Below are positions 36,901 to 53,755 of a stretch of 64,000 nucleotides of DNA, one piece after another (position 1 is the stretch's first letter; every line of letters begins with the position of its first letter). Both the position numbers and the translations under genes were made by a program. The notes under the pieces were generated by a model. That model had not been told where the DNA came from. It saw only the letters and a list, made by a program, of their open reading frames with translations, and did not search any database. This stretch comes from Pycnococcus provasolii. Taxonomy: Eukaryota > Chlorophyta > Pseudoscourfieldiophyceae > Pseudoscourfieldiales > Pycnococcaceae. The stretch covers positions 62,001-126,000 of the forward strand of contig OW568903.1 in the NCBI GenBank assembly GCA_938743325.2. Direction: 5' to 3'.

Positions 36901-37324
36901 CGACGCTGTTTGATGACTTGGTTGGCGACGCGGGCATGTCGTTCACCTGCTGTGTGCAGCACGAGAGCGCGAGCGCGACAATTTTCGCCGCGTCGTCGGT
37001 GTTGCGTACTCTGAGTCGGTTCGTCGTCGCGGCTTTTCTTCTGTTCGGTTGCTGCAGCACGAGCACAACCTCGTCATCTTGCGTGTATGCCCCGCACGCC
37101 ACCATTTCGGTACTTTTCGACGGAGTTTCTAAAACGGGAACTCTCTTCAAAATGTGCCACGCGATTCGTTGAGACGACCCGGATGACGACGTTTCCGCTC
37201 GAAGTATGCGCTCACTCCACGTACCTCCCACACCAAGGAGCCCTTGCAGCCATCCCTTGCTGTGCAGCGAGACGTTTAGCGAAAGGAGCACCGATGTTGA
37301 AGTCGACGAAGATGACGACGCCAT
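33923..37324 (-). CDS. Tandem-GAF class I cyclic nucleotide phosphodiesterase
   Basis: 1,133 residues from the ATG at 37324; the open frame extends seven codons upstream but only from GTG. The first 300 residues are low complexity, with an eight-fold Ala-Thr run. Two GAF domains follow (about 315-500 with SSLFVLMHDD, and about 515-700), as in PDE2/5/6/10/11, where a GAF binds cGMP or cAMP and controls catalysis. The PDEase I domain (about 800-1,115) has HNWQHAVTVFQ, ICHDMGHPGTTN and LLHAADLSNPT, that is, the metal-binding His and Asp residues. Function: hydrolysis of cyclic nucleotides, probably allosteric. Oddity: where most class I PDEs have the purine-contacting Gln in QVGFID, this protein has FVSTFVD, placing Val at that position. 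The downstream minus-strand neighbour (39.5-43.3 kb) contains a cNMP-binding domain. The 5' flank carries the shared promoter module. Confidence 0.9.
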   Translation of the reverse strand: MASSSSSTSTSVLLSLNVSLHSKGWLQGLLGVGGTWSERILRAETSSSGSSQRIAWHILKRVPVLETPSKSTEMVACGAYTQDDEVVLVLQQPNRRKAATTNRLRVRNTDDAAKIVALALSCCTQQVNDMPASPTKSSNSVAPSPVQAPAPSRDLSAILTPTPTATATATATANGGEGGRDTTPSKRTRGGNHGPDIVLGSAEPSIPTTQNVRRKSGIPALSDTGSRGSGDSYSGNASRRVGAAGSQLLRMNTKRLSLRDTDDANVANEAQMQGVLKFVSMMDGLFAGLQLDASLGLRIDALKSVLGVLVEQIQSKSEHDTGFAAAFSVLRNVCGKLLNCDRSSLFVLMHDDMTDAPYLWTLLDHGQELRIAADRGLSGHCATHREVVNVLDAYEDPRFDSRVDKSTGYKTVGVMCVPVLATKKSSRLSATSHSFDVEMSKCRNVPAAANVEQECIGVLQIVNKIGDDKAFNESDQKVLEAFATMSSVVISSAQTIADEARTHERVEMLNGVSQAVSSTLQAEVIAKRASDNISHYLQDAIVHVMMNDEIDGCLSLLGSISYENDIPFQLLKLQIEHGDDLVDYAYENLSIAEICMITNDIVHVSDISSAGSTMLGVKMELVHIHRIAQWDGDELRSCAAIPLHRMAVNEDNAPIGAMCVYAPFEVIGSIEAEALHAVSAVVGSAIANASAFEKAKARGNASAFYDAYAKAMGEDKDDSSDPDGSNDSSKDAKSGKNPSLLVENLLRSGDISADLTDNTPAYDTSRSFDISLVNFDDDSEIKLPAEPVPAPESIDDISFNALDYGPLELVVIVCHMYARHDLVRRAKMNPTTLYRFVYETMKAYEDNPFHNWQHAVTVFQIASVVAKRIREAQNKDYPPRSFLLNDLDVLSLLTAAICHDMGHPGTTNLFHVNTFSELAMTYNDHSVLENFHSACAARLLRDDNTNILSSLSMENYKTCRRIVCTAILGTDMSCHDKYLNMLESRIVTTADPETKQPVYTHTLKDTSIEDRELVVQSLLHAADLSNPTRGDELSRKWATMLADEMKLQVSKEKELGVPYLPFMEAGFSVGGEVFFVSTFVDGIWGAVSRVFPSCQIFYDNMTNLLESYHAEMVAAKSAASPRKSAESSTKSLF

Positions 37325-37712
37325 ATTTAGAAGGTTTGCACGCACTCAAGCACTTTGAAAGAAGTATGGAGGTGAGCAAATCGCACAACACACACACGCT
37401 TAAGCTGTTCACGACTATCGTTAATTAGCCAGTAAGTAAGCCAGTGCAGTGCAGTGCAGTGCAGTGGCGGAGCGCACACGGTCAGCCGGTGGCGCACCCT
37501 TGAAGCAGTTACAGGGCACACACGAATCAGCTCACACACGCACGCGAGCCAGAGCTCACAGCTCGCACGCACACAAGCAAGCTCACGCACAAAAGTGAGG
37601 CTCACAGCTCACAGCTCACAGACGAAACGAGAGCAAGAGCAAACTCCCTGTAACGCGCCACGGTATCACGAGTGTGTCTCGAACGTCGCTCTCCCGCTCG
37701 CTTAGATACACA

Positions 37713-37767
37713 CGCCCAGTACTGATACACGAGAACTGAGCTGAGTGTGTCTCGAATGTACTTATAG
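37713..37767 (-). promoter_or_regulatory. Shared core promoter module, copy A (phosphodiesterase)
   Basis: On the minus strand, TATAAG (37762-37767) and ACATTCGAG are followed by GTGTATCAGTACTGGGCG (37713-37730) and CTAAGCGAGCG. The 18-mer is identical at 44072-44089 and 52818-52835, both in front of other genes in the same sense. The TATA-to-18-mer distance fits a core promoter with an initiator. It lies about 390 nt before the phosphodiesterase ATG, and the leader between is rich in TGTGAGC repeats. Confidence 0.6.
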
Positions 37768-37774
37768 GTAAGCC

Positions 37775-38020
37775 AACAAGACTTGCACGGCTACGCCGTT
37801 GCTCGTCCTCCGGGAGTGTAAGCTTAACAAGACTCGCACGGCTACGCCGTTGCTCACCCTCCGGGAGTGTAAGCTTAACAAGACTCGACCGGCTACGCCG
37901 TTGCTCGCCCCCTCGAGTGTAAGCTTAACAAGACTCGACCGGCTGCGCCGTTGCTCGCGCTCCGGGAGTGTAAGCTTAACAAGACTCGACCGGCTGCGCC
38001 GTTGCTCACCCTCACCTAAT
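37775..38020. repeat. 51-bp tandem repeat, five copies
   Basis: Units start at 37775, 37826, 37877, 37927 and 37978 (50-51 bp each). The unit is AACAAGACTCGACCGGCTAC, GCCGTTGCTC and CTCCGGGAGTGTAAGCTT. Copies are 85-95% alike by eye, and the last is truncated. Read on the minus strand, boxes from the same family (GGCGTAGCC, GAGTCTTGTT, ACACTC) occur before promoter copies B and C, so these arrays look like part of the upstream promoter module and not a random satellite. Confidence 0.9.
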
Positions 38021-39493
38021 ACGCGCAGACCGCAGCTTAAGCCGCGTGCTTATTTCTTCGTTCCCGGAGCCGCGCTATTAATAAGGTTACGCGTTGTGTT
38101 GAGGTGGTCTGGTCTTCTTGCTTGGCGGAAAGTTGGCGCTATCCTCCTCCTGAAAGTAAAACCTGAAAAGGAAACTTTAGGCGGAGGGAGAGGCTTCTTG
38201 GCGCAGAAAAGCAGAAAAGCTCGTTTCGTTTCCCCTCGTTTTTTTCCAGGCTCCAGGTACACGGTGTGATCCAGGACTGGGATGTAAGCCGTGTTTCTTG
38301 GACTTTGGAGGAAAAACGAAACAACTATCACACATTTGGCTCACACAAGGCGCTGTGGTAGGATTCTACGCTGTGGCCTGTGGTACTCTGTGGGAAACTT
38401 ACTCGCAGTAAAGTGGTTGGTTGGTTGGCGCAAACACGTTCTTCCCATGGCCAATTCTCTCTCAATTCTCTCGATGAATTCTGCATCTGAAGGTGGAAAA
38501 TTCGTCTTGGAAAATTCGTCTTGGAAAATTCGTCTTGGAAAATGAAATTGGAAAATGAAATTGGAAAATTGGCGAAGAAGGAAAGCTGTGCCATGAACTA
38601 TGTACAGTCAGACAGTAGTACTATGAAGGCATGAAATGAAGCAATTGGTGTGTCAATTGGTGTGTCAATTGGTGTGTCAATTGTTATGCTGAATTGGTGT
38701 GCCTTTCAAGATGAAAAAGCGAATATGGCTGACACAGCTCGATGTGTCAGACCTCAAGCTAACACAGTTAAGTTCAATATTAGTGGTTGAGAAGAATAGT
38801 ACGAGAGCACCTCTTATCATAGACTAGTTAGTAGGCTCGTGCATATGAGCGGCGACTGGCGAGGTGGATGGAGGCCAGTAGTAGGAAGGCCACACACAAC
38901 CTGGTAAGTTTCCTGCGAAATTGTGGACCAAACGAATTCTGGTTTCTCTTTTTCTTTCTCACAGGCAGATAATCTTCGCGCAATCTGTCGTTCCGAGTAC
39001 CGAGGATCGAGTACCCGGTAAGCTACCAGACGAAACCCGCGGCCGGGGGAAGGAATGCGTTACAAAGTACCTACTTCAAACCTTAAACCCTATTCCTCCT
39101 TGAGAAAGTCTCCGTCGACGTCGCTGTTTCTTCCGCCTCAGGCGTTATTATTATTGTAGGGCCCTCCGCCTCCGCCTCCGCCTCCGCCTCCGCCGCCGCC
39201 GTCCGCCGTCCGCCGACGCGCGCGCAGAAGCAGAGCCGGAATACGCGTCGCAGAGACGTCTTGTCTTGCAAGCGCGTGTCTTCAGTCTTTTGCTGTGGAG
39301 CTCTTACGTACTTCGGTTCGTCAAACGGTCGTCCAAACACACCATTCTCATTCACCAAGCGCTTATTATGTATGTGCAAGACACTGCTCGTTTCGGAGGT
39401 TCTTTCTTGGGCGCTTGTTGACACTACTGGTTTGTTTCTCTTAAAAAATTATCATTCTCGTAATTTCGTTGTTACTTACGCGCGCACGCGTTA
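38021..39493. other. Intergenic spacer with several microsatellites
   Basis: No supportable gene. There are three 14-bp copies of TTGGAAAATTCGTC around 38500-38540, four CAATTGGTGTGT units around 38640-38685, and a CCTCCG run at 39164-39195. A minus-strand frame at 39083-39424 lacks an ATG and any recognised domain. Confidence 0.5.
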
Positions 39494-42400
39494 CTAGCCT
39501 AGTTGGTGAAGCAGAGAGTCGATCATGTCAATCTGGCTTGCGTGCGCCTCCGCAGGACTCAACGGAGGTCGACGAGCACCAGGCGCTGTTGGAAGAGCGC
39601 TGCCACCGCCAACACCACCACCCGGCGTCGATACCACGACGAGCGCGTCGCCAAAGTGGCGCACCTGGTCCTTCGTGCTACGCAGGCGGTCAAGCAGCGC
39701 GCTTCGGCTCGTCTCTTCTTGCTCGTCGGCGAGGGGCAAGGTGGGACCCGTGTAATACGGCATTGGCGACGGCGCCATCGCCACCGCCGTCGTCGGCGTC
39801 GCGACTGTGGTGCCCCATGTCGCCATGCGCGCGAGCGGAGATGTCGGCTGCGCAGATACCGCTGGCGCCAGGCCTGGATGAGGCGTGCCTCCGGGACCCC
39901 ACGGGCTGGGCGCGTACGACGCAGCCGCCGTGTTCTCTCGCGATGGCACCGAGTAGCCAGCCGGCACACCCATCGCCACCACGCCGGAGTGAGTCACGCC
40001 GGGAGACGCAGGCACTGGTGCTAGCGCGTAAGCCGTCGCGGGAGTCGACGTGGTCAGGGATGCCGCCTCGACAGCCATTGCTGCTGTGGCAGACGTCGAA
40101 GGTGGTGGTTGGTATCCACCTCGTAGTGAAGCAGCCTCACGCTGCGCCTCCTCCAGAGCCAGGCGAAGGCGTGCCGTGTCCTGCTCGAGCTGCACTTGTC
40201 GCGTTCGACTCGCCTCCGCTTCCGACCGCAATTCTTCCTCGGCAAGCGCGGCGGCGAATATGTCGTGCACCTCAGCCGCTCCATCCATGCCTGACATTGG
40301 GGCTGGTGCAGGTGCGACAGCGAGCGCCGCTGTCGTCCGTTGTTTCATGCTGTCCAAGTCAAGCCGGTGAGATTCAGCAAGCTTCTCAAGCTCCGCCTCG
40401 AGCTCGCCGGCGCGCGAGCTCCACGTCTCGACGCTCTTTTTGAGCGATTTTATCAGCGCCGCTGACGAGCCAAGCATCTTCACACGAACATCTGCTCCTC
40501 CAGCCACATCCCCAGAATCCGACGAAGATGTGGTGGGTAACTCGGTGTCGGCGTCTCCACTCTTAGGCTCACGCTGCGTGAGCGTCAGCAAGACCGCCGC
40601 CGGCTTCAACGTAGGACCATCAGCCGCCACAGCTTCCTCCTTGCGTTTGCGCGCAATTTTGCGAAGCTCGTCCAAAACGTCGGGCGCATCCGAGAGTACT
40701 TCGTCGACATCGTTCTTCGCAAACACGAACAAAATGGCATCCCCGCCGTGGCTCACACGCACTGTGGCAGCTCTCGGCTCGCCAAGGACAACTGCAACTT
40801 CACCAAGCACCTCACCTCGTATTGCGGTGTGCAGCAACTTGCCAGGTTTGCGGCCGGATTCGCCGGCACCTAGCACGACATCAAGGCTACCTGAGTCTAC
40901 CACGTACAGCTCAGGATTGTCCGATGTTTGGCCCTGCAGGATGAGCACGCCACCAGCGGGGCAACAATACATTGACGCTTTCTGCGCAAGCCGCTGAATG
41001 AGATCGGAGCGTTCTTTCAGTCCCGCACCGAAGATGGCTGACGCCTCGAGTGTGGCAGCGGCATCCTTGATGTCCGCCGGAGATGTGACGGGTTTTCCGA
41101 CGTTGCGTCTTTCGGCGGAGTTATCGCGCCAGGCGCGCGCCGCAAGCTTCGCCATTGTAGCGCGACGCATAAGCTGAGCGCTTATCTGCGGAGGTGCACG
41201 TGGCGCTGCCATGCTTCCTGCATCGGCATCGACAACCGTCTTCGCTCCTGGCAGGCTCGCTCCGGCGTCGCGTGCAACCCCCTCGAGGGCACCGCAAGCA
41301 GTGAAGACGCGCTTTGCCGCAGCGACAGCCGCCTCGAGGCGTTTGATGTTGTCGTCGCGTGACTTAATGGCGCTTGCGTGCTCCTCGCGCAGCAGGTTTT
41401 CTGTCTTCGCAAGCTTCTCACGCACCTCTTTTAACTGCTTCTCGAGTGTCTCAACACGTTCGGCGCTGGTGTGCTCCGCCTCGTACACTTCTTGCTTGTG
41501 TTTTTCGCGAAGATCTGCCAGCTCCTGCACTAGCGTATCTGCGCGTTCACGTTCACGTTTTTCCGCAGCTTCGCCATCAGCCATCGCAGCTTCCACCTTG
41601 CTATCAGAGCCGCTCGAAGCGTTCTCGAGTGCTTCTTTCACCAAGTTGACGAGCTCTCCCTGCTTGATTTCAGGTAACTTCTCAATCGTATCGCTGCCAA
41701 GGAATCCCATGAAGGGATTCAAGCTCGCGTCGTTTGTCTCGCCGCGACCGCTGGCATTCTTAGCGAGCTCTGCGGCGAGGCCGGTCTGCTCAATGAACGT
41801 CGTGTCGCGACGGGACTTGATCTCACTGGTTCCTGTCATGCTCGGCGCAATTTTCATATGTTCTGGTGCCTCGTACAGCGGGTGTGGGCGAAGCGCCGAG
41901 ACGCTCGTAGCAGGAAGTCTTCCTGAGCCACCCGGCGGGGATCCACCCGCGAACGAAACGGCCGAAGCACGCATGGCCTCCGCCGACGGCGCTGGCGGCG
42001 CTCGCGATGGCGCGCCCACAGCCACGCGCACAGCCTCGATTTCACGTCGCTGCCGACCAACCATTCGGCTGAGGTTATCCCTCTCGGCTCCCACCTTGGC
42101 AGCCTCCACCTGTGCGTCGCTGCGGTCGGAGAGGGCCGTCTCCATCCTAGCCTTGAGACGGACGGCTTCCGTGCCCGCAGCTTCGAGTTCTCTCTCAGCC
42201 GTCGTCTTGTCGTACAGAGCCGTGTCAAGCTCTCGCCTCACCTCAGCAAGCGTGTCCTGCAGCGACGCACGCTCGCGTGCGGCCGTTGCAAGCTCGGCGC
42301 GATGCCCCGATTCTGCTGCATCGAGCTTCTTACGGATGGCATCAGTCTCAGCCTGCGCGGCGCTCACGCCGCTGCTCGCCTTGGCGATCTCTTCGCCGTG

Positions 42401-43267
42401 CTGTCTCCGCATTCGGCTCACCTCGTTCGCATGATCTGACTTCATGCGCTCGATCTCAGCCTCGCTACGCCCGCCTGCGCTGGCCTGCATTGAGTTCATC
42501 GACTCGATGTTATCCATACGCTCCTCCTGCGCCCGTGAAGCGGCGGCACGATACTCCTGCGCATCACGCCGGGAAGCTTCAAGTTCATCCCATAGGCGTG
42601 CAACTTCCTGATCGAGTGCTGAAGTTGACGCTGACGACGAAGATGAGGGCGGTGCAGAAGGCGGTGATGGCTTTGGCGGAGGCGGTGATGGCTTTGATGA
42701 TGCCGGTGGTGGTTTCGGCGGTGCCGGTGGTGGTTTCGGCGGCGCAGGTGGTGCCTTGGGCGGAGCAGGTGGTGTTGGCGGTGTTGACGCTGGTTTTGGC
42801 GGCGGCGGCGGTGGTTTTGCGGCAGCATTCGGCGGCGGCGGTGGTGGCGGTGGCGGCGGAGCCCCAGCCGCGGCTGGTTTTGTCGGTGGCGTCGGCACGG
42901 TCGGTGGCGTCGGCGGCGTCGGCGCGGCCGGCTTGCCTAGGTTCTGCAGACCCTCGAGTGCTTTCTGCGCGTCACTTTTCCCGTGCGCCTGCCTGGTGTG
43001 CGCCTTCGGCGGCGGCGGCGGCGGTGCCCTAGGAACCGGGTTCGGCCTATCATCATCATCATCCTCGTCACTGGACGAGTCTAAGTCTAATGTGCGTACT
43101 TTGAATCCGAGTTTCCCTGACTGAGAAGAAGCCAACGAGAACTTCGAGGAAGATCCAGCTGCTGACGAAGCTGCTGCTGCAGCTACTGATGGAGGACGAG
43201 AAGCCCCAGCAGGTTTCAGCCTACTGTACTGATTAATCTGTAAGGCCGCGAGGAGAGACGGGTCCAT
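39494..43267 (-). CDS. Proline-rich coiled-coil protein with a cNMP-binding domain
   Basis: 1,257 residues from the ATG at 43267 (MDPSLLAALQINQYSRL); a farther upstream ATG would add an unlikely leader. Residues 60-110 are Ser-rich. About 115-235 is proline-rich (APPKPPPAPPKPPP), like a formin FH1 region, but no FH2 domain follows. Long coiled coils occupy about 240-420 and 560-700 (ADTLVQELADLREKHKQEV). About 764-865 is a CRP-type cyclic-nucleotide-binding domain with a well kept phosphate-binding cassette, GEVLGEVAVVLGEPRAATV, including the Glu and Arg that hold the cyclic phosphate and ribose. More coil follows (about 960-1,060), then an Ala/Pro-rich tail. It probably acts as a cAMP/cGMP-responsive scaffold; this is inferred. 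It is the upstream neighbour, on the same strand, of the tandem-GAF phosphodiesterase. Confidence 0.8.
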   Translation of the reverse strand: MDPSLLAALQINQYSRLKPAGASRPPSVAAAAASSAAGSSSKFSLASSQSGKLGFKVRTLDLDSSSDEDDDDDRPNPVPRAPPPPPPKAHTRQAHGKSDAQKALEGLQNLGKPAAPTPPTPPTVPTPPTKPAAAGAPPPPPPPPPPNAAAKPPPPPPKPASTPPTPPAPPKAPPAPPKPPPAPPKPPPASSKPSPPPPKPSPPSAPPSSSSSASTSALDQEVARLWDELEASRRDAQEYRAAASRAQEERMDNIESMNSMQASAGGRSEAEIERMKSDHANEVSRMRRQHGEEIAKASSGVSAAQAETDAIRKKLDAAESGHRAELATAARERASLQDTLAEVRRELDTALYDKTTAERELEAAGTEAVRLKARMETALSDRSDAQVEAAKVGAERDNLSRMVGRQRREIEAVRVAVGAPSRAPPAPSAEAMRASAVSFAGGSPPGGSGRLPATSVSALRPHPLYEAPEHMKIAPSMTGTSEIKSRRDTTFIEQTGLAAELAKNASGRGETNDASLNPFMGFLGSDTIEKLPEIKQGELVNLVKEALENASSGSDSKVEAAMADGEAAEKRERERADTLVQELADLREKHKQEVYEAEHTSAERVETLEKQLKEVREKLAKTENLLREEHASAIKSRDDNIKRLEAAVAAAKRVFTACGALEGVARDAGASLPGAKTVVDADAGSMAAPRAPPQISAQLMRRATMAKLAARAWRDNSAERRNVGKPVTSPADIKDAAATLEASAIFGAGLKERSDLIQRLAQKASMYCCPAGGVLILQGQTSDNPELYVVDSGSLDVVLGAGESGRKPGKLLHTAIRGEVLGEVAVVLGEPRAATVRVSHGGDAILFVFAKNDVDEVLSDAPDVLDELRKIARKRKEEAVAADGPTLKPAAVLLTLTQREPKSGDADTELPTTSSSDSGDVAGGADVRVKMLGSSAALIKSLKKSVETWSSRAGELEAELEKLAESHRLDLDSMKQRTTAALAVAPAPAPMSGMDGAAEVHDIFAAALAEEELRSEAEASRTRQVQLEQDTARLRLALEEAQREAASLRGGYQPPPSTSATAAMAVEAASLTTSTPATAYALAPVPASPGVTHSGVVAMGVPAGYSVPSRENTAAASYAPSPWGPGGTPHPGLAPAVSAQPTSPLARMATWGTTVATPTTAVAMAPSPMPYYTGPTLPLADEQEETSRSALLDRLRSTKDQVRHFGDALVVVSTPGGGVGGGSALPTAPGARRPPLSPAEAHASQIDMIDSLLHQLG

Positions 43268-43547
43268 AGATGCGGGGAAGCAAGTGATGTGTGCAAGAAA
43301 CAGTCGGCCGGCCAGGACAGGACAGGACAGGTTTCGAAATAAATGGCGTGAGAAATGTCGTTCGGCAACAAACCTTTTATGGAGAGGCAAGTTTCACCGG
43401 CACGGGGACCCAACGTTGCTAACCCCTATTCAATTCCAACCCAAGGATTAATATGCCCTTGTCCAACCCAAGGGCATATTTTTTAAAAGCCCGTGGGCTG
43501 GTCCCTCCCGACCATGGGGCCCGTTGTCTCACCCACGCCCTTTTCTC

Positions 43548-43570
43548 CTAACCCTAATGCTAACCCTAAC
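43548..43570. repeat. Short telomere-type motif
   Basis: CCTAACCCTAATGCTAACCC, with three TAACCC-like units, one with a substitution. It lies about 280 bp before the start of the minus-strand cNMP-binding gene. Apart from this and the promoter module, the stretch 43268-43870 shows nothing else. Confidence 0.6.
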
Positions 43571-43876
43571 GCCCGCCCATGCTTTCTAAGGTTAGTTTCT
43601 ACTTTTCTTCCTTTCCCGCTCCCACCTCTGGGAAAATGGGAATTATCGCTCAAGGGAGATATTTGGTCGTGGGTTATCTATCTGCAGGGACCGCCTGATC
43701 TATCGTAGACTATGAATTTTGGTTTGGGTGAGATCCCTGTTTTCCTCCTTGTGAACCGAAAGCTGGCCCCTGGAGGGAATCTTACGCCGAACATTCCCGG
43801 CCCCGTCAGACGGCCCCTTGGAGCACGTGGTTTGGACCCTCGCCCGCGCCATTTCGCATATTTCCCCAGGCAGCAC

Positions 43877-44007
43877 GGGCGAGAACGGCGTAGCCGGACG
43901 AGTCTTGTAACACTCGGGCGAGAACGGCGTAGCCGGGCGAGTCTTGTTGGTGTTAAGCATCCGTGTTCTCGTCTTGTTGGTGTTGGCGAGCAGCGGCTTA
44001 AGCATCC
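43877..44007 (+). repeat. Promoter-associated repeat boxes, set B
   Basis: Two copies of GGGCGAGAACGGCGTAGCC + GGACGAGTCTTGT, then two shorter boxes (TCTTGTTGGTGTT, CGGCTTAAGCATCC). The boxes GGCGTAGCC, GAGTCTTGTT and ACACTC also make up the 51-bp unit at 37.8-38.0 kb read on the minus strand. CGTGTTCTCGTCTTGTTGG is shared with the region at 52.77 kb. Confidence 0.7.
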
Positions 44008-44044
44008 TTCTTAAGGTCTTGTCACGGGATATTACCTTTCGGGA

Positions 44045-44089
44045 TATATATATATTCGAGGAGCTCACCTCGTGTATCAGTACTGGGCG
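44045..44089 (+). promoter_or_regulatory. Shared core promoter module, copy B (MFS transporter)
   Basis: A TATATATATATT box at 44045-44056 is followed 15 nt later by GTGTATCAGTACTGGGCG (44072-44089), then CTAAGCGAGCG as in copy A. A leader of about 320 nt, rich in TGTGCTG/TGTATCTG repeats, precedes the transporter ATG at 44407. Confidence 0.6.
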
Positions 44090-44406
44090 TGCTAAGCGAG
44101 CGAGCAGGCTGTGCTGTGCTGTGCTGTGCTTGTATCTGTGTCTGTATCTGTGGTGTATCTGTGTGTTGCTTGACAACAAGGTTGTGTTGGCTTTGGCTTT
44201 GACTTCACACGGGTGCATCTACCTTCAGGCATCCATCCATCCCTACGCGGCTTGCTTGCGTCGCCATCTGCTTCATCCGTCACTCGTCTTGTCCTGTTGG
44301 CTGGCTGGTTGATTCCTTTTGCATATATCTTTCATATACAGCAAGCAAGCAGATTCGTTGTGCCTGGTTAAAGTTGCAATCACCAACATTCATTCATTCA
44401 TTCAAT

Positions 44407-46251
44407 ATGCTCTTCTTCACAACAACAACGACGACGACGACGGCACAGCAGCAGCAGCAGCAGCTGAGTTTAGCAAGACGACGACGACGACATCATAATC
44501 CTCATCATCCACATGTCTCGTCGTCGTCGTCGTCGTCATCATCCACGCACAATAATGTCGTTGTGTGCCAAGCGTACCAGAGAGCGCAATCATCATCATC
44601 ATCCTCATACGGCATACCCAAGCAGGCAAGAACGCCGCCCCCAGGGTTAAAACCAAAAGCCGCCGCCGTGGGAACCGTGAAGCAGAGAACGGGAACAATG
44701 CGCGTACCTCCCACGGTACTGCCCATACCCACGTCCGAAACCAACAAAACGAAACAAGACGACAACTTTGACGAAGACGCAAACAACGGCGCCGCGTGGA
44801 CGCTCTTCGTTCTCAGCCTCTGCTACGTTCACAACTCCGTCGCAACGTTCGTGCTCCCAGCCATCTTGCCGCAGGTGTCCGCAGACCTGCACCTCACCGA
44901 CGCGCAGGCGGGCGCACTCACAAGCGCACAGGCATTCGCGTACGCCATCGCGCTCATCCCGTGCGGCGCACTCGCTGACGCGCTGGACCGACGCGTGCTC
45001 CTCGCGCTCGCAGTCGGCACGTGGTCACTCGTCACAGCAGGAAGCGGAAACGAACTTGCCGTCAACACATTCGCCACGCTTCTGCTGTCGCGTGCCCTGC
45101 TCGGAATGGCGCAGGGACCGCAGAATCCCGTCGCCTTCTCTCTGCTGCCTGAGCTCTTTCCGAATCGCCGTGCCCTCGCGATCGCCATGTACAACTGCTC
45201 CGTGTACGTAGGGCGAGGCATGAGCGTGCTCTTTGCCGCCGCCATGGTATCCGCGGGTGAGGGAATGAGCGGCACGTCCGATGCCGTGGCGGGAACCACA
45301 AGCAGCCAGGCACTCTGGGTGCCTCTCGAAAATCTTGACCCTGAATCGATGAGCCTGCTGTACATCGTCGGCGATCAGGCGGCTGTGACTCCCGTCTGGC
45401 AGTACGGAACGTACGGCGCGCTGACGGACCTCGCTGTGACGGCGGGATGGCGACACACCCTCGAGATTGTTGGCTTACCAGGTGTCGCACTTGCCGCGCT
45501 GCTCTTCCTCACGGTACGCGATCCGTCCAAGAACGGCGGTGCACGCACGAAAAGAGGACGAGTCGGGGAACAGTCTGCGACTGCGCCGCCGAAAAAGGAG
45601 TCCATTTCATTTCAAGCACTGCGGCAGAGAGCCATGCAGTGCGCAAGCGTAAAACGCTTTCAGAAAATCACACTCGCCGCGGCTTTGAATGACATTGGAT
45701 TCTGGGCTCTCGTCGCTTGGCAGGCAACCTTCTATGAAAGGTGCTTTCCTGAGGAGCATGGGCCGCATTACGCCGCCTGGCTCGTGGCTTGCATCGTCAT
45801 CGGGGGCATCGCCGGAGGCATTGGCGGGGGCGTCGCTGCAGATACGCTGTCAAAGCGCGGCCAACCCGTGCGCCCGCTTCTCGCTGGAGTCACTGCACTT
45901 TCCGCGCCTATGCTGGCCATGTGCCTTCTCGCACCGTCGGCATCGTCGAGCCTAGCCTTCCTGCTTCCAACCATGGCACTTGGCGAGGCGTACCGAGCAC
46001 CGTGCGCCGTTCGTGTGCGTGAGACAAGCCCGCCAGGGCTAGCCTCCACAGCCGCGGCAGTTCATCTTGCCGTGCGAAACATGTCGGGAGCTCTCGGACC
46101 TCTGATGGTGGGTGCGCTCGAAGAACGCGCGGGGCTGGACCTGCGCGTGGCACTGCTGTGCGTAGTACCTCCCCTCTTCTTGGCTAGCGGGCTGGCGTTC
46201 TGGGCGGGAGATGGTCACGGCGACGACGAACACAACGACAGCAATAACTAA
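44407..46251 (+). CDS. Major facilitator superfamily transporter, spinster-like
   Basis: 614 residues from the ATG at 44407. The first 125 residues are basic and rich in Thr, Gln (CAG run) and Ser with no acidic residue near the start, like a plastid or mitochondrial leader. The body has about twelve hydrophobic segments in two halves. After the first helix pair comes the MFS signature loop, GALADALDRR (about residues 190-200). The second half has a matching loop, GGVAADTLSKRGQPVR. The first helix, LFVLSLCYVHNSVATFVLPAIL, and a large central loop resemble the spinster-like/phthalate permease branches. It moves small solutes by proton- or solute-coupled exchange, and the substrate is unknown. 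The upstream promoter carries the shared 18-mer module. No intron is needed. Confidence 0.85.
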   Translation: MLFFTTTTTTTTAQQQQQQLSLARRRRRHHNPHHPHVSSSSSSSSSTHNNVVVCQAYQRAQSSSSSSYGIPKQARTPPPGLKPKAAAVGTVKQRTGTMRVPPTVLPIPTSETNKTKQDDNFDEDANNGAAWTLFVLSLCYVHNSVATFVLPAILPQVSADLHLTDAQAGALTSAQAFAYAIALIPCGALADALDRRVLLALAVGTWSLVTAGSGNELAVNTFATLLLSRALLGMAQGPQNPVAFSLLPELFPNRRALAIAMYNCSVYVGRGMSVLFAAAMVSAGEGMSGTSDAVAGTTSSQALWVPLENLDPESMSLLYIVGDQAAVTPVWQYGTYGALTDLAVTAGWRHTLEIVGLPGVALAALLFLTVRDPSKNGGARTKRGRVGEQSATAPPKKESISFQALRQRAMQCASVKRFQKITLAAALNDIGFWALVAWQATFYERCFPEEHGPHYAAWLVACIVIGGIAGGIGGGVAADTLSKRGQPVRPLLAGVTALSAPMLAMCLLAPSASSSLAFLLPTMALGEAYRAPCAVRVRETSPPGLASTAAAVHLAVRNMSGALGPLMVGALEERAGLDLRVALLCVVPPLFLASGLAFWAGDGHGDDEHNDSNN

Positions 46252-46601
46252 TATTCTAAGATTTGTTTTTCAGTAAATGAGAAAATGTACATTACTTTTG
46301 TCCAACGGCGATCCAATCACACCATTCACATATTCCCCAGCGCGTTTGTACATGGCCTACGATGATGATGGTGACGGTGATGATGATGTATAGTTTCAAC
46401 GAAAATTAAGAATTGTTAAAAAAATGTGTGTTAAAAAATGCGTTAAAAGAGAGCAAAACATGATGAAGAGAAAAAAACAACAACACTCGTGAATCGATTT
46501 CCCAAAAAAGGCTCTCATCTTCTTTTCACCTCCGCCCTCCCTGTATCCGTATGATGCATTCATTCCAAAAAACAAGCCGTCCAATCAAATCAATAAGCGC
46601 G
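46252..46601. other. Convergent 3' spacer, AT-rich
   Basis: The 350 bp between the transporter stop and the stop of the CBM20 gene (convergent). It contains a GATGATGATGGTGA microsatellite near 46360-46390 and AT-rich sequence. No gene is seen. Confidence 0.6.
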
Positions 46602-48395
46602 TCACTTGTCTCCCTTGCTGAATGCATCCGACGCATCCTCAGCCGTCTCCGCAGCCTCGTCGTTCCCTGCAAACGACGTGGCGTTGTTTTCCGCTTGTAT
46701 CAACTTGCTCTTAGAAATTTTATCATTCAGCGCGTCAATGCGCTTCGACACCGTCTCAAGCTTTTCTGCAACCTCCGTCGGATTCTCCGCGGCAGCTTTT
46801 TGCTTCTTCGTTCTGCGGTTAACCTTCTTCACCTTCTTCGTGCTCTTCCTTTTCGGAGCGAGCGCCTCCGTCGAAAGCCAGCTCTGGAATGCATCTCGGT
46901 CTTTGAGCGCAGCGAAAGCCTTCTTACGATCCTCCGCAAAGAGGAGGTTGCGGCCAGCCACGCCTGCGAGGATCGCGACGGCGGCGACCTGCAGAGCTGG
47001 CTCGGCGGCGGCTGCACCCGCCCCGCTTGCCATTTGCAGGAGAACGTCCTCCATGCCCGCCACAGCGCCGATGGTCGCTGCGCCACCCGCGGCGATCGTC
47101 GCCGCCTTCGACACTTGCTCAGGATTTACGTCGGCGAGCTTCTGCTTGAGCTCGCTGGACATGCTGGCAGCCACGTTGACCTTCTCCTCCTTCTCGACAG
47201 CTTCTTCCTCCTTCTCAGGCTCGTCGTCGATAACCGGCTCGAGCCCAGGCTCGGGCTCAGGCTCAGGCTGCTCGGCAGTCACTTCGAGCGGCTCCGGCTC
47301 CGGCTCGGGCTCCGGCTCCGGCTCTGGAGCGACCGGCGCTGGCGCAGGCTCGGACTGAGCAAGTTTGCTTTTCGCGGCGGCGGCGAACAGTTCGTGCGCA
47401 GGATAGCACTCGACGATCGCATCCAAGTCGCGGCCGAGCTGTCCTTTGAGCGGCTGGTCGCCGGTGACCATGATTCGGCGCAGCGACTGCTCTGGCGTCG
47501 TGAACAGTTCGCCATCCTCCGTGATTCCGACGCGAAGCCTCGTGTCCGCCTCCAGCACGCGATTCTCGCCGCACATCCAGAGGAATTCGCCGCTCGCGCT
47601 GCGTCGCACCACCTTGTACTCGACCGCCTCGCCTTCGTGCACGTCCTCGGCGACCGTTGTGGGCAGCGTCGCGCACCAGGTTCCGTCGCCTAGGTCCTCC
47701 ATAACAACGCCGCTCTCCGGGTCCCACGCGCCGAGGCCTGCGTGGTCGCCGACGAGAACGAGTTCCTCGCCAGGTGGGCAGTACCAGTTGACGAAGATTC
47801 TCGCTTCGTGTTCTTCGTCGAAGTTGTCGAAGAGTATGCGCTGGTTGGCGCCAGCCTCCCAGCTGTACGTTCCGTCTCGGCACGCGACGACGACTTTAAA
47901 CTCGCACTCGCTGACGTCCGCCTCGTCGATAGCTATGTCCGCGGACCAGAGGTCGCCGTCGCTCCACGTGAGCGGCAGCGACCGCTGCGGGTCCCACATT
48001 CCCAGCTGGTCGACGTTACCGCAGATTTGCACGTTATCTCCAAACTCGCAAGGGACGTGCACGCAGAAACGCAGCGCCATGTTTTTCCCAGAAACCTCGC
48101 CTTTGTTCTTCGCGGGTGCTGCTTCTGTGCCCCCAAACCGAAACAGCTGCGACTGTTGCTGCTGTGCCGCCGCTTTGGTTTGTGTGCGACGACAAACGAA
48201 CTTCTGAGTTCCTGCTGCCCTGCCAACTCGTCCCATCAAGTGAACTTGCTGCGATCTCGACGACACCGAAGGCACCTGAAGTGGCGTTTTCATCTGAGCG
48301 AACACGGTGGTGGTTGTGTTCTGTTGGAACAAACGCGTCCTCCCTTGAGATGAAAGCGGGTTCCCGTGAAGCTGGCCATACACGTGCCCCGCCAT
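46602..48395 (-). CDS. Plastid-targeted tandem CBM20 starch-binding protein
   Basis: 597 residues. Residues 1-90 are rich in Ser/Thr/Gln/Arg with almost no acid, a probable plastid transit peptide. Two CBM20 domains follow: about 103-200 (VQICGNVDQLGMWDPQRSLPL) and about 202-300 (LVLVGDHAGLGAWDPESGVV). Each has the GN.LG.W starch-site motif and a following Trp/Tyr-rich strand. A Glu-Pro repeat stalk (about 345-405), an Ala-rich hydrophobic segment (about 440-500, possible membrane anchor) and a Lys-rich tail complete it. No catalytic domain is present, so it probably tethers starch or organises starch plates. Chlamydomonas LCI9 (two CBM20 domains, pyrenoid starch) and SAGA proteins are the nearest functional parallels, by architecture only. 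Confidence 0.8.
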   Translation of the reverse strand: MAGHVYGQLHGNPLSSQGRTRLFQQNTTTTVFAQMKTPLQVPSVSSRSQQVHLMGRVGRAAGTQKFVCRRTQTKAAAQQQQSQLFRFGGTEAAPAKNKGEVSGKNMALRFCVHVPCEFGDNVQICGNVDQLGMWDPQRSLPLTWSDGDLWSADIAIDEADVSECEFKVVVACRDGTYSWEAGANQRILFDNFDEEHEARIFVNWYCPPGEELVLVGDHAGLGAWDPESGVVMEDLGDGTWCATLPTTVAEDVHEGEAVEYKVVRRSASGEFLWMCGENRVLEADTRLRVGITEDGELFTTPEQSLRRIMVTGDQPLKGQLGRDLDAIVECYPAHELFAAAAKSKLAQSEPAPAPVAPEPEPEPEPEPEPLEVTAEQPEPEPEPGLEPVIDDEPEKEEEAVEKEEKVNVAASMSSELKQKLADVNPEQVSKAATIAAGGAATIGAVAGMEDVLLQMASGAGAAAAEPALQVAAVAILAGVAGRNLLFAEDRKKAFAALKDRDAFQSWLSTEALAPKRKSTKKVKKVNRRTKKQKAAAENPTEVAEKLETVSKRIDALNDKISKSKLIQAENNATSFAGNDEAAETAEDASDAFSKGDK

Positions 48396-50198
48396 ATTTA
48401 TTACTCACTCGATATTATATTCGCGCTTAGAGAGTGAGTGATACTTTCTTTCTAAAAGTATGAAGTATGAAGTATGAAGTTGAGTTCTTCCTCTCAGAGT
48501 GTTGACTCAACTTGTAAGCTTGTGTTCTTATATCCGCCGACCAGCCGGGACGACGCTAAAGAAGAGCTGTTAACACACAAACTCGTTAACCTCGTCAAGC
48601 TAACAAGCTAACAAGCTAACAAGCCTCTGAACTAATATTAGAATCCGATTCCACTCCGAGCGAGCGAGCCGAGGAGATGAGACGAGAGAAATGTGGATTT
48701 ACAAGATTCTCAAGCAAAGGTTGTAAACAAGTTGCTGTGCAAGGGTAGGAACCCAATAATGTCGGAATGAATATTCGGCGATGATGATCGAAGGGCTGGG
48801 CCACTCCGAATCTCGAGGGGCAATGGGGCCAACTTGACGCGATTCGCCCGACGAAGCCTTCTGGTGAGCGTCTGGGCGTCGGAGCGTCTGGGCCTCGCGA
48901 GCGCGTTCGTGCGCTTCCTGAGACGTTCGGTGAGTGAGAGCTTGCTTCACCACCGCTGAAAATCAGCCAAAAAAAATTGCCAAAAAAAATTCTCAAAAAA
49001 AAATTCCTGAAAAAATTTGCCAGAAAACATTTTGCGGAAAATTTGCGGAAAATTTTGCCAAAATTTGCAAGAAAAAATTTGCCAGAAACCTTTCGCCCAA
49101 AACGTTTTTCAGGGCCCTTTCCATGTGGAATTCTCCCTTCTTATTCGGAGTTTCCATGTGAAGATTTCCATGTGACAATACATGTGTTCTTCGGAGCGAT
49201 TTCCTATTGCGAATTGCGCCAATTACAGTATTTAGGTACGACGAAAACGGCGAATCACACGCGCAAGGAGAAATCAAGGCACCGAAGAAATCTAAGTAAT
49301 TATTATGGTGATATCTCAACCCGCCAATTGGTATCAAGAAAAAAAAATCATAACCTTTTTCCAGGGAAAAAAAATAATTAAAAAAAACAACGTAACGACG
49401 GCAAGACAACGGGTCCAGTTAACCAGCTGGGAGGGAGTGGTCCTCCCTGCAGAATCAGCGACATCGAGTGGCCACCACCACCGAACTAAAGATTTCGATG
49501 TTCAAGAGGCAAAAGGCATGCATTCCGTGATGTCAATCAATAGCCACTGATGCCAACGTTGACAACAATATCAACGTTGACGGTCTTAAGACGTGATGTC
49601 AATCAATTGGCAGGTTCCTTCCGTTGAGAGACTACCTATACCAGATCAAGTCCAGGAAATAGGGAAGGGAGGAGAGCTAACCCTAGCCCTAACCCTAACC
49701 CTAGAAACCCGAACCCTTCCGATCCTCCCTCCACACCTCCAGCAGGTGCCGATGACAAGCGTCGTGACAAGCGTCGTGACAAGCAACGTCCGGACGTGAC
49801 TTGAGCGTCGTGGGTGACAAGCGTCTCGAGAGATGTCGAGGCTCAAGACTCGAGAAGCTCAAGGGCGTGACGCAAGCAACAACAAGCAGTTTCAAGACGC
49901 ATAAGCAACCAAAACAAAAATGCATTTAAGACGCGCGCGCACGCATGTGCACGCACGCGAGGGATTGTGTATGGTTAGCTTGTGAACTTAATTTAAGCAC
50001 GCATGACGCAGTAGTTGTACTTTATGAAGTAAGTCGTCGTTTGGAAAAAAAGAATCGTGAATGCAAAGATCGTCCTGAGCTGTTGGTTCTTCTCTTTCAT
50101 TCTGGAACAAGGAATTCGTTCCACACAAACAAAAACATGTATCTACTTACAAATCTATCTTACAAAAATATTTCAAGGCTCATGAAGATGAAAGATAT
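48396..50198. other. Intergenic region of 1.8 kb, mostly low complexity
   Basis: 48396-48640 is the 5' flank of the CBM20 gene, with ATATAAGAACAC-like sequence on the minus strand and tandem AAGTATGAAGT. 48960-49100 holds AAAAAATTTGCC/AAAAAATTCTC short repeats. 49678-49703 is a telomere-type CCCTAACCCTAACCC tract. ACAAGCGTCGTG occurs twice at about 49750-49785. No gene is supported. Confidence 0.5.
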
Positions 50199-51443
50199 CT
50201 ATTGAAGAATCTCAATCTTCGGCGCGTCGTCGCTGCCGTCGCCGTCGCCGTCGCCGTCGCCGGAGACGTCATCAGCAGAGGACGGCGTATTATCTGATTC
50301 CTCTGCGACATCAACACCGCCGCCGACGCCGCCACCACCACCACCTCCTCCTCCTCCACCGCACTTGTTCTCGCCTCGTGTACCCTCGCATAGATTGCGG
50401 CTAAGCAAATCGTCCTCAGCAGTTGACGACGACTCATCCTCACCATCACGGTCGCTGTCCTCCCCGACGATGGCGAGCTCCATCTTCCGCTTGTCTTCGA
50501 TCGTGAACATGGGAGCAGGCTTCCACTCTCCTGCCGGCGTAACAGCGGCAGCGGTTGAGCTTGACGAAGTCACCGTGCCTCTGCCGTTTCCGCGGAAACC
50601 TTTTCGATTGCGCCGCCGCACGTTGTGAGGGAGCGCCGCGGCAACCTCCGCCGCCCTCGCCATCGCGCTCTGCACGATTTCCGAAACGTAGCCGCCTGTC
50701 GGCGCGGCAACGCTGATGTCCACGACTGTCGGCCCACCGAGACGTGTGCCGATCCACAGATCCGCACTCGACGTGTTCAAGTAGTCTTCGGCGGGCCACT
50801 CGACGACCGCGACGACGTCGTCCATGTTGTTGTTGATGGTCGGGTCTTTAATGCCGTATCCTGCCACCGCCATCGTGCCGCCTGCCCCGCTGCCACTCTG
50901 CGAGCGCGCGACGTGGTCGCGCACGTACGCCTCTGTGAACGACTTCCCGAGCTGCTGCTCGACGCTTTGCACCCTTGCGCCTAGCGTTCGAAAGTCCGCC
51001 TTTGTTCTCTTGGGTACGCGCGGGTGTTTGCGCGTACTGCGTTCGCTCGAATCTGTCTCGCCGTCTTCGGCGGTGCCGTCTGCCGCCGATGATGAGGCCG
51101 ACGCCGACGACGCCGACGACCTTCTTTCCCACGCCGAGCTCGAGCGCGAGCCTGACGACCTCGACCTGCGGTGTGCGGCGGCCGCGGCGGCTCTCTTGAA
51201 CTTGTTGTACACGTTCCTCGCCTGCTCCATATCTCTGAGGACTTGTCTTGTGACTCCGATGGTCAAGACGAGCACGACGAGCGACACGAGCAGGATCCTC
51301 ACTTTCGCCCACGTCCATTTGCGCGGCTCAACCGAGATGACGTGCTGCATGACCACCTTGCAAGTGTCGAGGAATCTGGCATGGTGTTGATTCCTCCGCG
51401 AGAGCGCATCCGCCTGCCTGTTGAGCGCGTGCAGGTTACGCAT
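50199..51443 (-). CDS. Unknown single-pass membrane protein
   Basis: 414 residues from the ATG at 51443; the frame runs 11 codons further upstream but only from GTG. I recognise no family. Residues 1-45 are polar and helical. Residues 48-66 (VRILLVSLVVLVLTIGV) are one clear transmembrane helix. RQVLRDMEQARNVYNKFKR and a long Ser/Arg/Ala-rich stretch come next. A folded-looking part at about 190-290 contains DDVVAVVEWPAEDYLNTS and GGPTVVDISVAAPTGGYV, with a potential beta-rich fold. The C-terminus is acidic and Gly-rich, ending in a DGDGDGDGSDD tract. The basic stretch after the helix suggests it faces the cytosol or stroma. A missed upstream exon cannot be excluded. Confidence 0.6.
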   Translation of the reverse strand: MRNLHALNRQADALSRRNQHHARFLDTCKVVMQHVISVEPRKWTWAKVRILLVSLVVLVLTIGVTRQVLRDMEQARNVYNKFKRAAAAAAHRRSRSSGSRSSSAWERRSSASSASASSSAADGTAEDGETDSSERSTRKHPRVPKRTKADFRTLGARVQSVEQQLGKSFTEAYVRDHVARSQSGSGAGGTMAVAGYGIKDPTINNNMDDVVAVVEWPAEDYLNTSSADLWIGTRLGGPTVVDISVAAPTGGYVSEIVQSAMARAAEVAAALPHNVRRRNRKGFRGNGRGTVTSSSSTAAAVTPAGEWKPAPMFTIEDKRKMELAIVGEDSDRDGEDESSSTAEDDLLSRNLCEGTRGENKCGGGGGGGGGGGVGGGVDVAEESDNTPSSADDVSGDGDGDGDGSDDAPKIEILQ

Positions 51444-51740
51444 CGCCGGCGGATAAAATAAACACACCAAACCCACAACAAGAAGATGATTTGAGTCGCC
51501 TTAAACTCACGACCCGTCGACGGAGTGCAAGACAGAGATATTATTAAATGAGCCTCCTCACAGACAAATAGCACGCTGTTTCTTGTGGAGTGGTGTGAGC
51601 GAGCAAACTCACTATACTAGGGAGAGTCGACTGCCAACACTTACTAGAACTATGAATACACACACACACAAGCACGTGTACACACACACAAACCAACGTT
51701 GCTTATTATCTGATAAGCAACAACGCGTGTACCGTGTTCT

Positions 51741-51783
51741 CTGAGCTGAGCTGAGCTGAGCTGAGCTGAGCTGAGCTGAGCTG
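51741..51783. repeat. GAGCT pentanucleotide microsatellite
   Basis: About eight copies of GAGCT/GCTGA in the 5' flank of the unknown membrane protein. A shorter GAACTGAGCTGAG version lies at promoter copy A. Nearby at 51650-51700 are CA-rich runs. Confidence 0.8.
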
Positions 51784-51840
51784 ACCCAAGTGTGTTTCTT
51801 GCGAATGGCGTCCGATCGCTGCGCCCGAAGAGCAATAGGA

Positions 51841-51939
51841 ACCCTAACCCTAACCCTAACCCTAACCCTAACCCTAACCCTAACCCTAACCCTAACCCTA
51901 ACCCTAATGCCCTAATGCCCTAATGCCCTAATGCCCTAA
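51841..51939. repeat. Interstitial telomere-type tract with derived units
   Basis: Eleven perfect CCCTAA units (51841-51907) run into four copies of the derived octamer TGCCCTAA (to about 51939). This is the longest such tract in the window. The stepwise change from hexamer to octamer suggests local amplification after insertion. It is followed by CCCGCCCTCCTTTTCC repeats and then, from about 52110, by TGGTCAAG repeats. Confidence 0.9.
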
Positions 51940-52119
51940 TTGGCATGCCCTCTTTTTCCTGCCCTCCTTTTCCCGCCCTCCTTTTCCTGCCCTAATTGGC
52001 ACGCCCTCGTTTTCCTGCCCTCCTTTTCCAGTTTTCCTGCCCTTCTTCGTCCGAAGTTCGAACATTCGAAGGGCGAACAAAAGAGGGAGGAAATATGGTA
52101 CATACAGGAATGAATTCCA

Positions 52120-52320
52120 GGCAAGCGAGGTGGGCAAGAAGGGCATGGATGGTCAAGAAGTGCATGGTCAATCGGTGTGGTCAAGTTGGCATAGTGAAGC
52201 GAAGTGGTCAAGTTGGCATGGTCAAGCAGGGCACGGATGGTGACGCGGGTCAAGGAGTGCATGGATAGTGAAGCGAAGTGGTCAAGCAGGGCACGGATGG
52301 TGACGCAATAAGGTGAGGAA
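52120..52320. repeat. GGTCAAG(T/C)-containing short repeats
   Basis: Repeated GGTCAAGTTGGCAT, GGTCAAGCAGGGCACGGATG and GAAGCGAAGTGGTCAAG blocks, each two or more times. The block GTGAAGCGAAGTGGTCAAG occurs at about 52194 and 52269. No coding potential is visible. Confidence 0.7.
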
Positions 52321-52459
52321 TCCAGTCCTCCCAACAGGGTACTCCAAACCCATTCCATTGAAAGCTTTCCATTCCCCTAGGGTAACTCAAACCCATTGGT
52401 CCCATAAAGGTTAAACTGGGAAGGGGAAACCACCTCTCACCCGAACCCGAATCGCTCGC

Positions 52460-52499
52460 TAACCCTAACCCTAACCCTAACCCTAACCCTAACCCTAAC
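52460..52499. repeat. Interstitial telomere-type tract
   Basis: Six and a half TAACCC units followed by two copies of GCTCGCCGAACCCTAAC-like sequence. It is about 560 bp upstream of the wall-protein ATG. Confidence 0.9.
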
Positions 52500-52710
52500 G
52501 CTCGCCGAACCCTAACGCTCGCCGAACCCTTTCCCGTTGGGGACCCGGCGCCGACGAGCAGGTTCGGAAGGGCATTGATTTGAACCTCCCCCCCGGCCCC
52601 CCCCACACCTGGGGGGCCGCGGCTCTTTCGTCGCCATTCGCAACATCACATCCACAATCGGCTGCACACGCACGCACACGTGTCTTGTCACGTCGGTGAG
52701 GCTCAGTGAC

Positions 52711-52790
52711 TCTCGAGTCTTGTTGAGCCTCCTTACACTCGGGTGTGCTCGCAACGGCTTAAGTAGCCGTGTTCTCGTCTTGTTGGATTA
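52711..52790 (+). repeat. Promoter-associated repeat boxes, set C
   Basis: Contains CGAGTCTTGTTGAG, TTACACTCGGG, GCAACGGCTTAAG and GCCGTGTTCTCGTCTTGTTGG, each recognisable in sets A or B. It lies immediately upstream of promoter copy C. Confidence 0.6.
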
Positions 52791-52801
52791 AGTTGAATAA
52801 G

Positions 52802-52835
52802 TATATTCAGCTCGTGTGTGTATCAGTACTGGGCG
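52802..52835 (+). promoter_or_regulatory. Shared core promoter module, copy C (wall protein)
   Basis: TATATT (52802-52807) is followed by GTGTATCAGTACTGGGCG (52818-52835). The leader, 52836-53055, is close to that of copy A over about 200 bp: GAGACACACTCG, GATACCGTGG, GCTCTCGTTTCGT, repeated TGTGAGC and GTGCGTGAGCTTGCTTG are shared in the same order. Confidence 0.6.
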
Positions 52836-53055
52836 AGCGACAGTCGAGACACATTCGAGACACACTCGAGCTCGGGATACCGTGGCCAGCGTGTTACTTG
52901 CTTTGGCTCTCGTTTCGTGCGTGAGCTGGCTGTGAGCTGTGAGCTGTGAGCCGCGCTGCTTGGCTTGCTTGTGTGCGTGAGCTTGCTTGCTTGCCCGCTC
53001 GGCTGAGACTGAGAGCTCTTAAGAGACGGCTCGTTCGTGTGCGTGGCTCGACAAC

Positions 53056-53317
53056 ATGCTCACAAGGCGATGCTTGCCTTGTCAACGGCCACTTCTTCCT
53101 TCAAGGTTATCTTTCTCGCTATGGTCTCGCTTTATGGTTGTGCTACTTGGCTTGCTGGTTTTACAGAGCGGCTTTATTGGCTTACCGCATTCCTCAGTTC
53201 CTATGCTCGTTTCTGCGGCGTCTCCTGCGGCCTTCTCATCTTCTCAAGAAACAGAGTCAGCCTTCTACGGAATTACGATCCTGCCGCCTCCACCACCACC
53301 ACCTCCTCCACCACCAC

Positions 53318-53348
<31 letters not shown>

Positions 53349-53715
53349 TCCACCGCCGCCGCCGCCTTCGCCACCGCCACCGCCGCCGAGCCCGCCGCCG
53401 CCTCTGCCGACTTGGCCGACGTCGCCACCGCCGCCGTCGCCACCGCCGCCGCCCTCGCCGCCGCCCTCGCCGCCACCGCCGCCGCCGCCTGAACCGCCGT
53501 CGCCGTCGCCGCCGCCAAGCCCGCCGCCATCAAGCATGCCGAGATTCCTTGGCGTCAAGTTCGAAGTCGACGACGAACGGCTCACGGCGAGCATACAAGT
53601 GCTACTCCACAGGCCGGGGTACGTGTCGTACGCGCTCGTCGAAAAGGACGCGTCAAGTGCCACCGTCAAGGCGGACGCGAAACTGCTCACGGAGGGCGGA
53701 TTCTGCGACAACCCG

Positions 53716-53755
<40 letters not shown>

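Follow-up and report, generated by a model that had tools for sequence, protein, structure and literature searches.

A dispersed cassette preceding unrelated genes of Pycnococcus provasolii and its probable place in long AUG-free 5' leaders

Why should three unrelated genes in one short piece of a green algal chromosome be preceded by exactly the same 18 nucleotides? The question is raised by a 64-kb stretch of the Pycnococcus provasolii genome (the window, C43:62001-126000; the genome comprises 32.3 Mb in 46 contigs), in which the 18-mer GTGTATCAGTACTGGGCG stands in front of a phosphodiesterase gene, an MFS transporter gene and a gene for a large proline-rich protein. The original prediction read this 18-mer as the initiator of a TATA-containing core promoter, perhaps carried by a regulatory cassette that had spread in front of unrelated genes and was directed at the next gene in each case. 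Our analysis supports the spread, gene-directed cassette and argues against the promoter: on the sequence evidence, the 18-mer very probably lies inside a transcribed leader and has no core promoter at its position.

The 18-mer and the cassette around it

The three window copies, here named A, B and C, are exact (Table 1), and their distances to the start codon, 388, 317 and 220 nt, agree with the range given originally; the continuations CTCGTGTATCAG and CTAAGCGAGCG said to be shared by copies A and B are both present. No further match with up to 3 mismatches exists within the window, and shuffled windows contained 0.03 matches on average, 3 copies being reached in 0 of 100. Genome-wide, 8 exact matches and 18 matches with at most 2 mismatches were found, compared with 0 for the reversed control pattern. 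All but one of these 18 belong to a single longer module; the remaining one (L015) was rejected as a chance match to the 18-mer and is left out of the 17-locus counts given below. The module is far longer than the 18-mer, pairwise similarity extending over about 390-440 nt around it in the longest pairs.

Read toward the gene, the cassette consists of tandem TCTTGTTG boxes (U, boxes around CGAGTCTTGTTGG and AACGGCTTAAGCAGCCG), a TATA-like block around GTATATTCGAGACACACTCAGCTC (T), the 18-mer with its palindromic core CAGTACTG (I), and downstream blocks that include CTAAGCGAGCG (K) and GTGATACCGTGGC (D), with further shared stretches 3' of D, such as TTACAGGAAG and TCTTGCTCTCGTTTCGT. The order of the blocks is mostly conserved across loci, and individual blocks are lost or swapped in a mosaic fashion. 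More specifically, copies on C5 and C36 carry U and T followed by a different shared block, without the 18-mer (one additional, weaker match to this block lies on C26), and some other loci have a shorter or wider version of the 18-mer. The longest U array, counted as pattern matches, has 8 boxes in a row at C44:52053-52390, and all 69 U-box matches have the orientation of the cassette. Among the 30 loci read, no clearly antisense copy was found, and in 27 the first ATG past the cassette opens the longest downstream open reading frame.

ATG avoidance and the start of transcription

If the cassette were a core promoter, TBP would bind the TATA-like block, transcription would start at the CAGTACTG core and the upstream boxes would be transcription-factor sites. 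A TATA-like stretch does precede each window copy, as predicted, about 16-36 nt before the 18-mer; it starts 37-43 (A), 28-34 (B) and 23 nt (C) before the A of the CAG core. Such a block precedes the 18-mer in all but one of the 17 copies, several times at a distance of about 30 nt, and both the palindromic core and the constant sense orientation of the cassette wherever a gene can be assigned would suit a promoter. Against this, the spacing ranges from 23 to 44 nt instead of being fixed near 30 nt, the TATA-like block is absent in one copy (C14_419), and the 18-mer itself, present within 2 mismatches at 10 of the 16 loci found by the T block, is missing at the other 6. TATA plus initiator promoters share with the cassette a TATA-like block upstream of a conserved short core; the cassette differs by its loose spacing and by an avoidance of ATG that reaches far upstream.

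This avoidance is strand-specific. Between the 18-mer and the start codon, the 17 loci contain 0 ATG in 3906 nt where 41 are expected (the lowest of 300 shuffle sets had 31), together with 53 CAT, and the 400 nt on the upstream side of the 18-mer hold 7 ATG where 58 are expected, none of them within the nearest 250 nt, and 81 CAT. In 25 cassette genes, the 400 nt that precede the start codon hold 6 ATG where 117 are expected and 147 CAT where 131 are expected, ATG being the most depleted of the 64 triplets (the next is TAG, 0.39). Farther upstream, 21 ATG were found where 43 are expected at 400-600 nt, and 133 where 127 are expected at 600-1000 nt. Nineteen other genes, used for comparison, have 69 ATG against 82 expected in their last 400 nt, with depletion limited to roughly the final 200 nt. 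The median distance back to the first upstream ATG is 672 nt in the cassette genes compared to 186 nt in these others (p 8e-7). As fractions of expectation, the cassette genes show 0.06 for ATG, 1.12 for CAT, 1.57 for GTG, 1.29 for TTG and 0.62 for CTG. In annotated 5' untranslated regions (UTRs) of 478 eukaryotes, AUG is reported to be depleted and GUG and UUG to be raised (PMC7889888). The pattern expected of a leader, strand-specific loss of ATG with raised near-cognate GTG and TTG, is thus what we found.

Since shared ancestry of the copies could imitate such a depletion, two further tests were made. Variant sites in the aligned cassette parts create 0 ATG and 40 CAT, and 16 other triplets arise 30 to 113 times apiece. 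The second test took the 150 nt immediately 5' of the cassette at 30 loci where these segments are mutually dissimilar: 10 ATG were counted against 36 expected, 26 of the segments having none. With growing distance from the cassette, ATG begins to recover at about 150 nt upstream and comes close to its background frequency by 300-350 nt. A translated leader was ruled out, because on reading back from the start codon an in-frame stop is met after a median of 51 nt in the 25 cassette genes.

As the strand-specific loss of ATG runs past the 18-mer and the boxes and about 150 nt further, the main transcript start would lie upstream of the cassette. The simplest reading is that transcripts begin about 150 nt or more upstream of it and that the cassette sits well inside the leader; a secondary start at the 18-mer may exist. 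A core promoter would have the avoidance begin at its core. Sense ATG is instead scarce both before and after the 18-mer, and the scarcity extends past the boxes into upstream DNA that is unrelated between loci; we consider a core promoter very unlikely.

Several observations weigh against a location in the leader. The cassette copies are related and many of the counts are non-independent, which the variant-site and dissimilar-segment tests mend only partly. The nearest upstream CAT is also slightly farther away in cassette genes (median 48 compared to 23 nt, p 0.03), 4 of the 30 upstream segments do contain an ATG, the ATG-free stretch extends beyond the farthest box in 20 of 26 genes and fails to do so in 6, and 3 of the 30 loci read have no clear following gene, with ATGs intervening. 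In addition, two choices of sample favour the leader: the window gene at 60807 (one weak box, nearest ATG at -74) was dropped from the 26 family genes, leaving 25, and C38_178, C32_126 and C23_111, where no gene is clear and ATGs intervene, were dropped from the upstream-segment tests. Because upstream open reading frames are reported to be abundant in Chlamydomonas (PMC4751561), AUG-free leaders of such length would be notable if borne out by transcripts.

Copying between genes and chromosome bias

Pooled searches yielded 39 cassette loci, 12 on C1-C34 and 27 on C35-C44, which amount to at most 4.03 of 32.33 Mb, or about 12% of the genome (C39 and C40 are sized by the bounds of neighbouring contigs, hence the upper limit; binomial p 3e-16, for loci that are not independent). 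The four contigs C41-C44, 1.24 Mb together, carry 17 of the loci, and the U-box pattern alone places 18 of 25 loci on C35-C44. TTAGGG-type telomere repeats cap both ends of C43 and of C44, so that these are whole small chromosomes. All locus counts are lower bounds, and the searches, partly seeded from C43, may favour its near relatives. Of the 39 loci, C39:56k, C40:264k and C44:52k were not read as sequence, the first two being included on similarity to the downstream leader alone, and 6 were read only as 1-kb pieces. The D block at 1 mismatch gave 38 matches compared to 21 in the control, 7 of the 38 lying in the family; these matches are mostly due to chance, and because only 1 of the 31 outside the family is on C35-C44, chance matches are not biased to small chromosomes.

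Highly similar copies can precede different genes: C41_136 and C41_160 are 89% identical over 284 nt, and C38_338 and C22_554 are 91% identical over 261 nt. Local duplication was rejected as the source, the nearest neighbour being on the same chromosome for only 4 of 36 loci (p 0.17). The DNA directly upstream of the cassette is mutually dissimilar in 30 of 33 loci, so that what was copied resembles an internal stretch of a leader and not a promoter. Most likely, then, the cassette was copied among unrelated genes without their promoters.

A repeat that is tolerated in leaders and has no function of its own, be it a non-autonomous mobile element or one driven by recombination, would also be dispersed, mosaic and tandemly expanding, and it could account for the 27 of 39 loci on small chromosomes and for the 89-91% identical pairs before different genes. 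Such an element would not readily explain why no copy among 30 loci is clearly antisense, only 3 lacking an assignable gene, nor why the block order is mostly retained, and we hold it to be unlikely. A viral origin was also rejected: the exact 18-mer occurs in one viral contig (L115), at a frequency near our chance estimate for so large a collection, and the matching stretch holds little beyond the 18-mer, scoring 16.3 bits with the sequence model compared to 13.4 for the chance match L015. The U-box scan for a viral source gave single 14-mer matches among the matches listed.

The genes behind the cassette differ in their products. In the window, Pfam confirmed the phosphodiesterase and the transporter; the third gene had been called a wall protein, which was a guess, as its proline-rich product has no Pfam match. 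This product and that of another cassette gene on the same chromosome (L043, C43:257k) are both large and of low complexity and have FYG(I/V)TIL near the start in common, and they may be paralogues. Outside the window, cassette genes encode PWWP, UDPGP family, cNMP-binding, LRR, PP2C, EF-hand, S1/P1 nuclease and ion channel proteins and, with weak matches, ubiquitin-like and PH proteins, the remaining scanned genes having no clear match. Several of these look like signalling proteins, an impression formed with no background set and not a claim of enrichment.

Table 1. Cassettes, ATG-free stretches and genes in the window
Feature	Position	Strand	Remark
18-mer copy A, before the phosphodiesterase gene	37713..37730	-	exact match
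Cassette A: tandem U boxes (array 37768-38013), T block 37738-37760, 18-mer, D block 37657-37669, downstream leader blocks	37528..38004	-	
Sense-ATG-free stretch before the phosphodiesterase start; expected to contain the transcript start	37325..38332	-	nearest upstream ATG -1011
PDEase_I + GAF protein gene	33923..37324	-	Pfam
18-mer copy B, before the MFS gene	44072..44089	+	exact match
Cassette B: U boxes, TATA-like run, 18-mer, CTAAGCGAGCG; D block not found	43883..44115	+	
Sense-ATG-free stretch before the MFS start	43715..44406	+	nearest upstream ATG -695
MFS transporter gene	44407..46251	+	Pfam
18-mer copy C, before the proline-rich protein gene	52818..52835	+	exact match
Cassette C: U boxes, short TATA-like block, 18-mer, D block 52874-52886 (1 mismatch), downstream leader blocks	52713..52990	+	
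Sense-ATG-free stretch before the proline-rich protein start	52300..53055	+	nearest upstream ATG -759
Large proline-rich protein gene, no Pfam match	53056..58053	+	

Other features were recorded along the way. Interstitial CCCTAA telomere-type repeats lie at positions 271-308, 51840-51907 and 52459-52499 of the window, away from chromosome ends; as markers of transcript starts they were rejected, their position being inconsistent. The window also encodes, at 28708-31257 (-), an aconitase whose domains include Aconitase_B_N and Aconitase_2_N; this bacterial type (AcnB) is found here in a green alga. Elsewhere in the genome, a group I intron (Rfam RF00028, 71.5 bits) interrupts the 18S rRNA gene at L236:760-1105 (C2), and an antenna-protein family gave 51 matches, with two gene clusters at C31:133072-142609 and 360395-366434 (12 entries with the same score); for one antenna protein the best matches in the PDB are Lhca3 chains of the green lineage.

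Possible action of the cassette and its relation to known systems

We propose that the 18-mer is one of several blocks in a dispersed cassette within unusually long AUG-free 5' leaders of unrelated genes, and that the cassette, not the promoter, would have spread between genes, most often onto the smallest chromosomes. Transcription would begin upstream, in gene-specific DNA, and ribosomal subunits would scan through the cassette, so that new AUGs would be removed by selection. The CUUGUUG boxes and the 18-mer would act in the mRNA as putative protein-binding sites, setting the translation or stability of a small regulon. Copying, gene-directed orientation, mosaic structure, chromosome bias and location inside the leader are all supported at the sequence level. 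Control at the RNA level through box-binding proteins is favoured because, wherever a gene can be assigned, members of the family occupy its leader in a single orientation, and we judge such action plausible, if somewhat short of probable. Taken as a whole, a 5'-leader cassette copied from gene to gene without its promoter and exerting control through RNA is the explanation to which we incline.

The argument for action in the mRNA comes from position, and the structural results count against it. Folding energies compared with shuffles gave sense-strand mean z values of -0.40 and -0.19 (n=17), near zero on both strands, and no Rfam match at the gathering score was found in 5 cassette loci; a structured cis-regulatory RNA was rejected on these grounds. 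Pairing with 18S rRNA was not convincing either, since 9 (U) and 5 (T) of 200 shuffles equalled the 10-nt matches of these two blocks, and I and D gave nothing. The missing folding signal would suit an element that works as DNA within the leader, as an enhancer or a secondary start downstream of the main one that would increase transcription or set its timing, with an inert copy in the mRNA; the box arrays and the palindromic core indeed resemble protein sites on DNA. A DNA enhancer, however, would not need to be confined to leaders and to one orientation with respect to assignable genes, and we see in it a minor but real possibility.

The leader cassette that we favour has partial likenesses elsewhere. 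Introner elements of green algae are likewise short repeats copied into many genes, but they are spliced out, whereas the ATG avoidance seen here points to retention of the sequence in the mRNA. Mobile promoters share the idea of a regulatory stretch copied before unrelated genes; in the present family, what is copied seems to begin downstream of the promoter, given the dissimilar upstream segments in 30 of 33 loci. The Leishmania retroposons SIDER1 and SIDER2 occupy 3' UTRs in 785 and 1073 copies, bear retroposon hallmarks and are reported to act on the mRNA (PMC2323293). They are, like the cassette, dispersed degenerate repeats in untranslated regions of many unrelated genes, and many dispersed copies (39 loci) in apparently untranslated parts of genes with unrelated products are also what we found; the cassette differs in having about 40 copies, in 5' leaders, and in that no retroposon signature was seen, no systematic search for one having been made. 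No report of such a leader-cassette family was found in literature searches that were mostly broad and covered few subscription papers, and its novelty is provisional.

In conclusion, and tentatively, the family may consist of about 40 portable mosaic leader modules, kept AUG-free by selection and biased to the smallest chromosomes, forming an RNA-level regulon that recruits genes by leader transfer. The chromosome bias offers a handle on the copying mechanism, and the case illustrates that comparing the counts of a triplet and of its reverse complement can move the inferred start of a transcript from sequence alone. If leaders move rather than promoters, a few hundred copied bases would put unrelated genes under shared post-transcriptional control.

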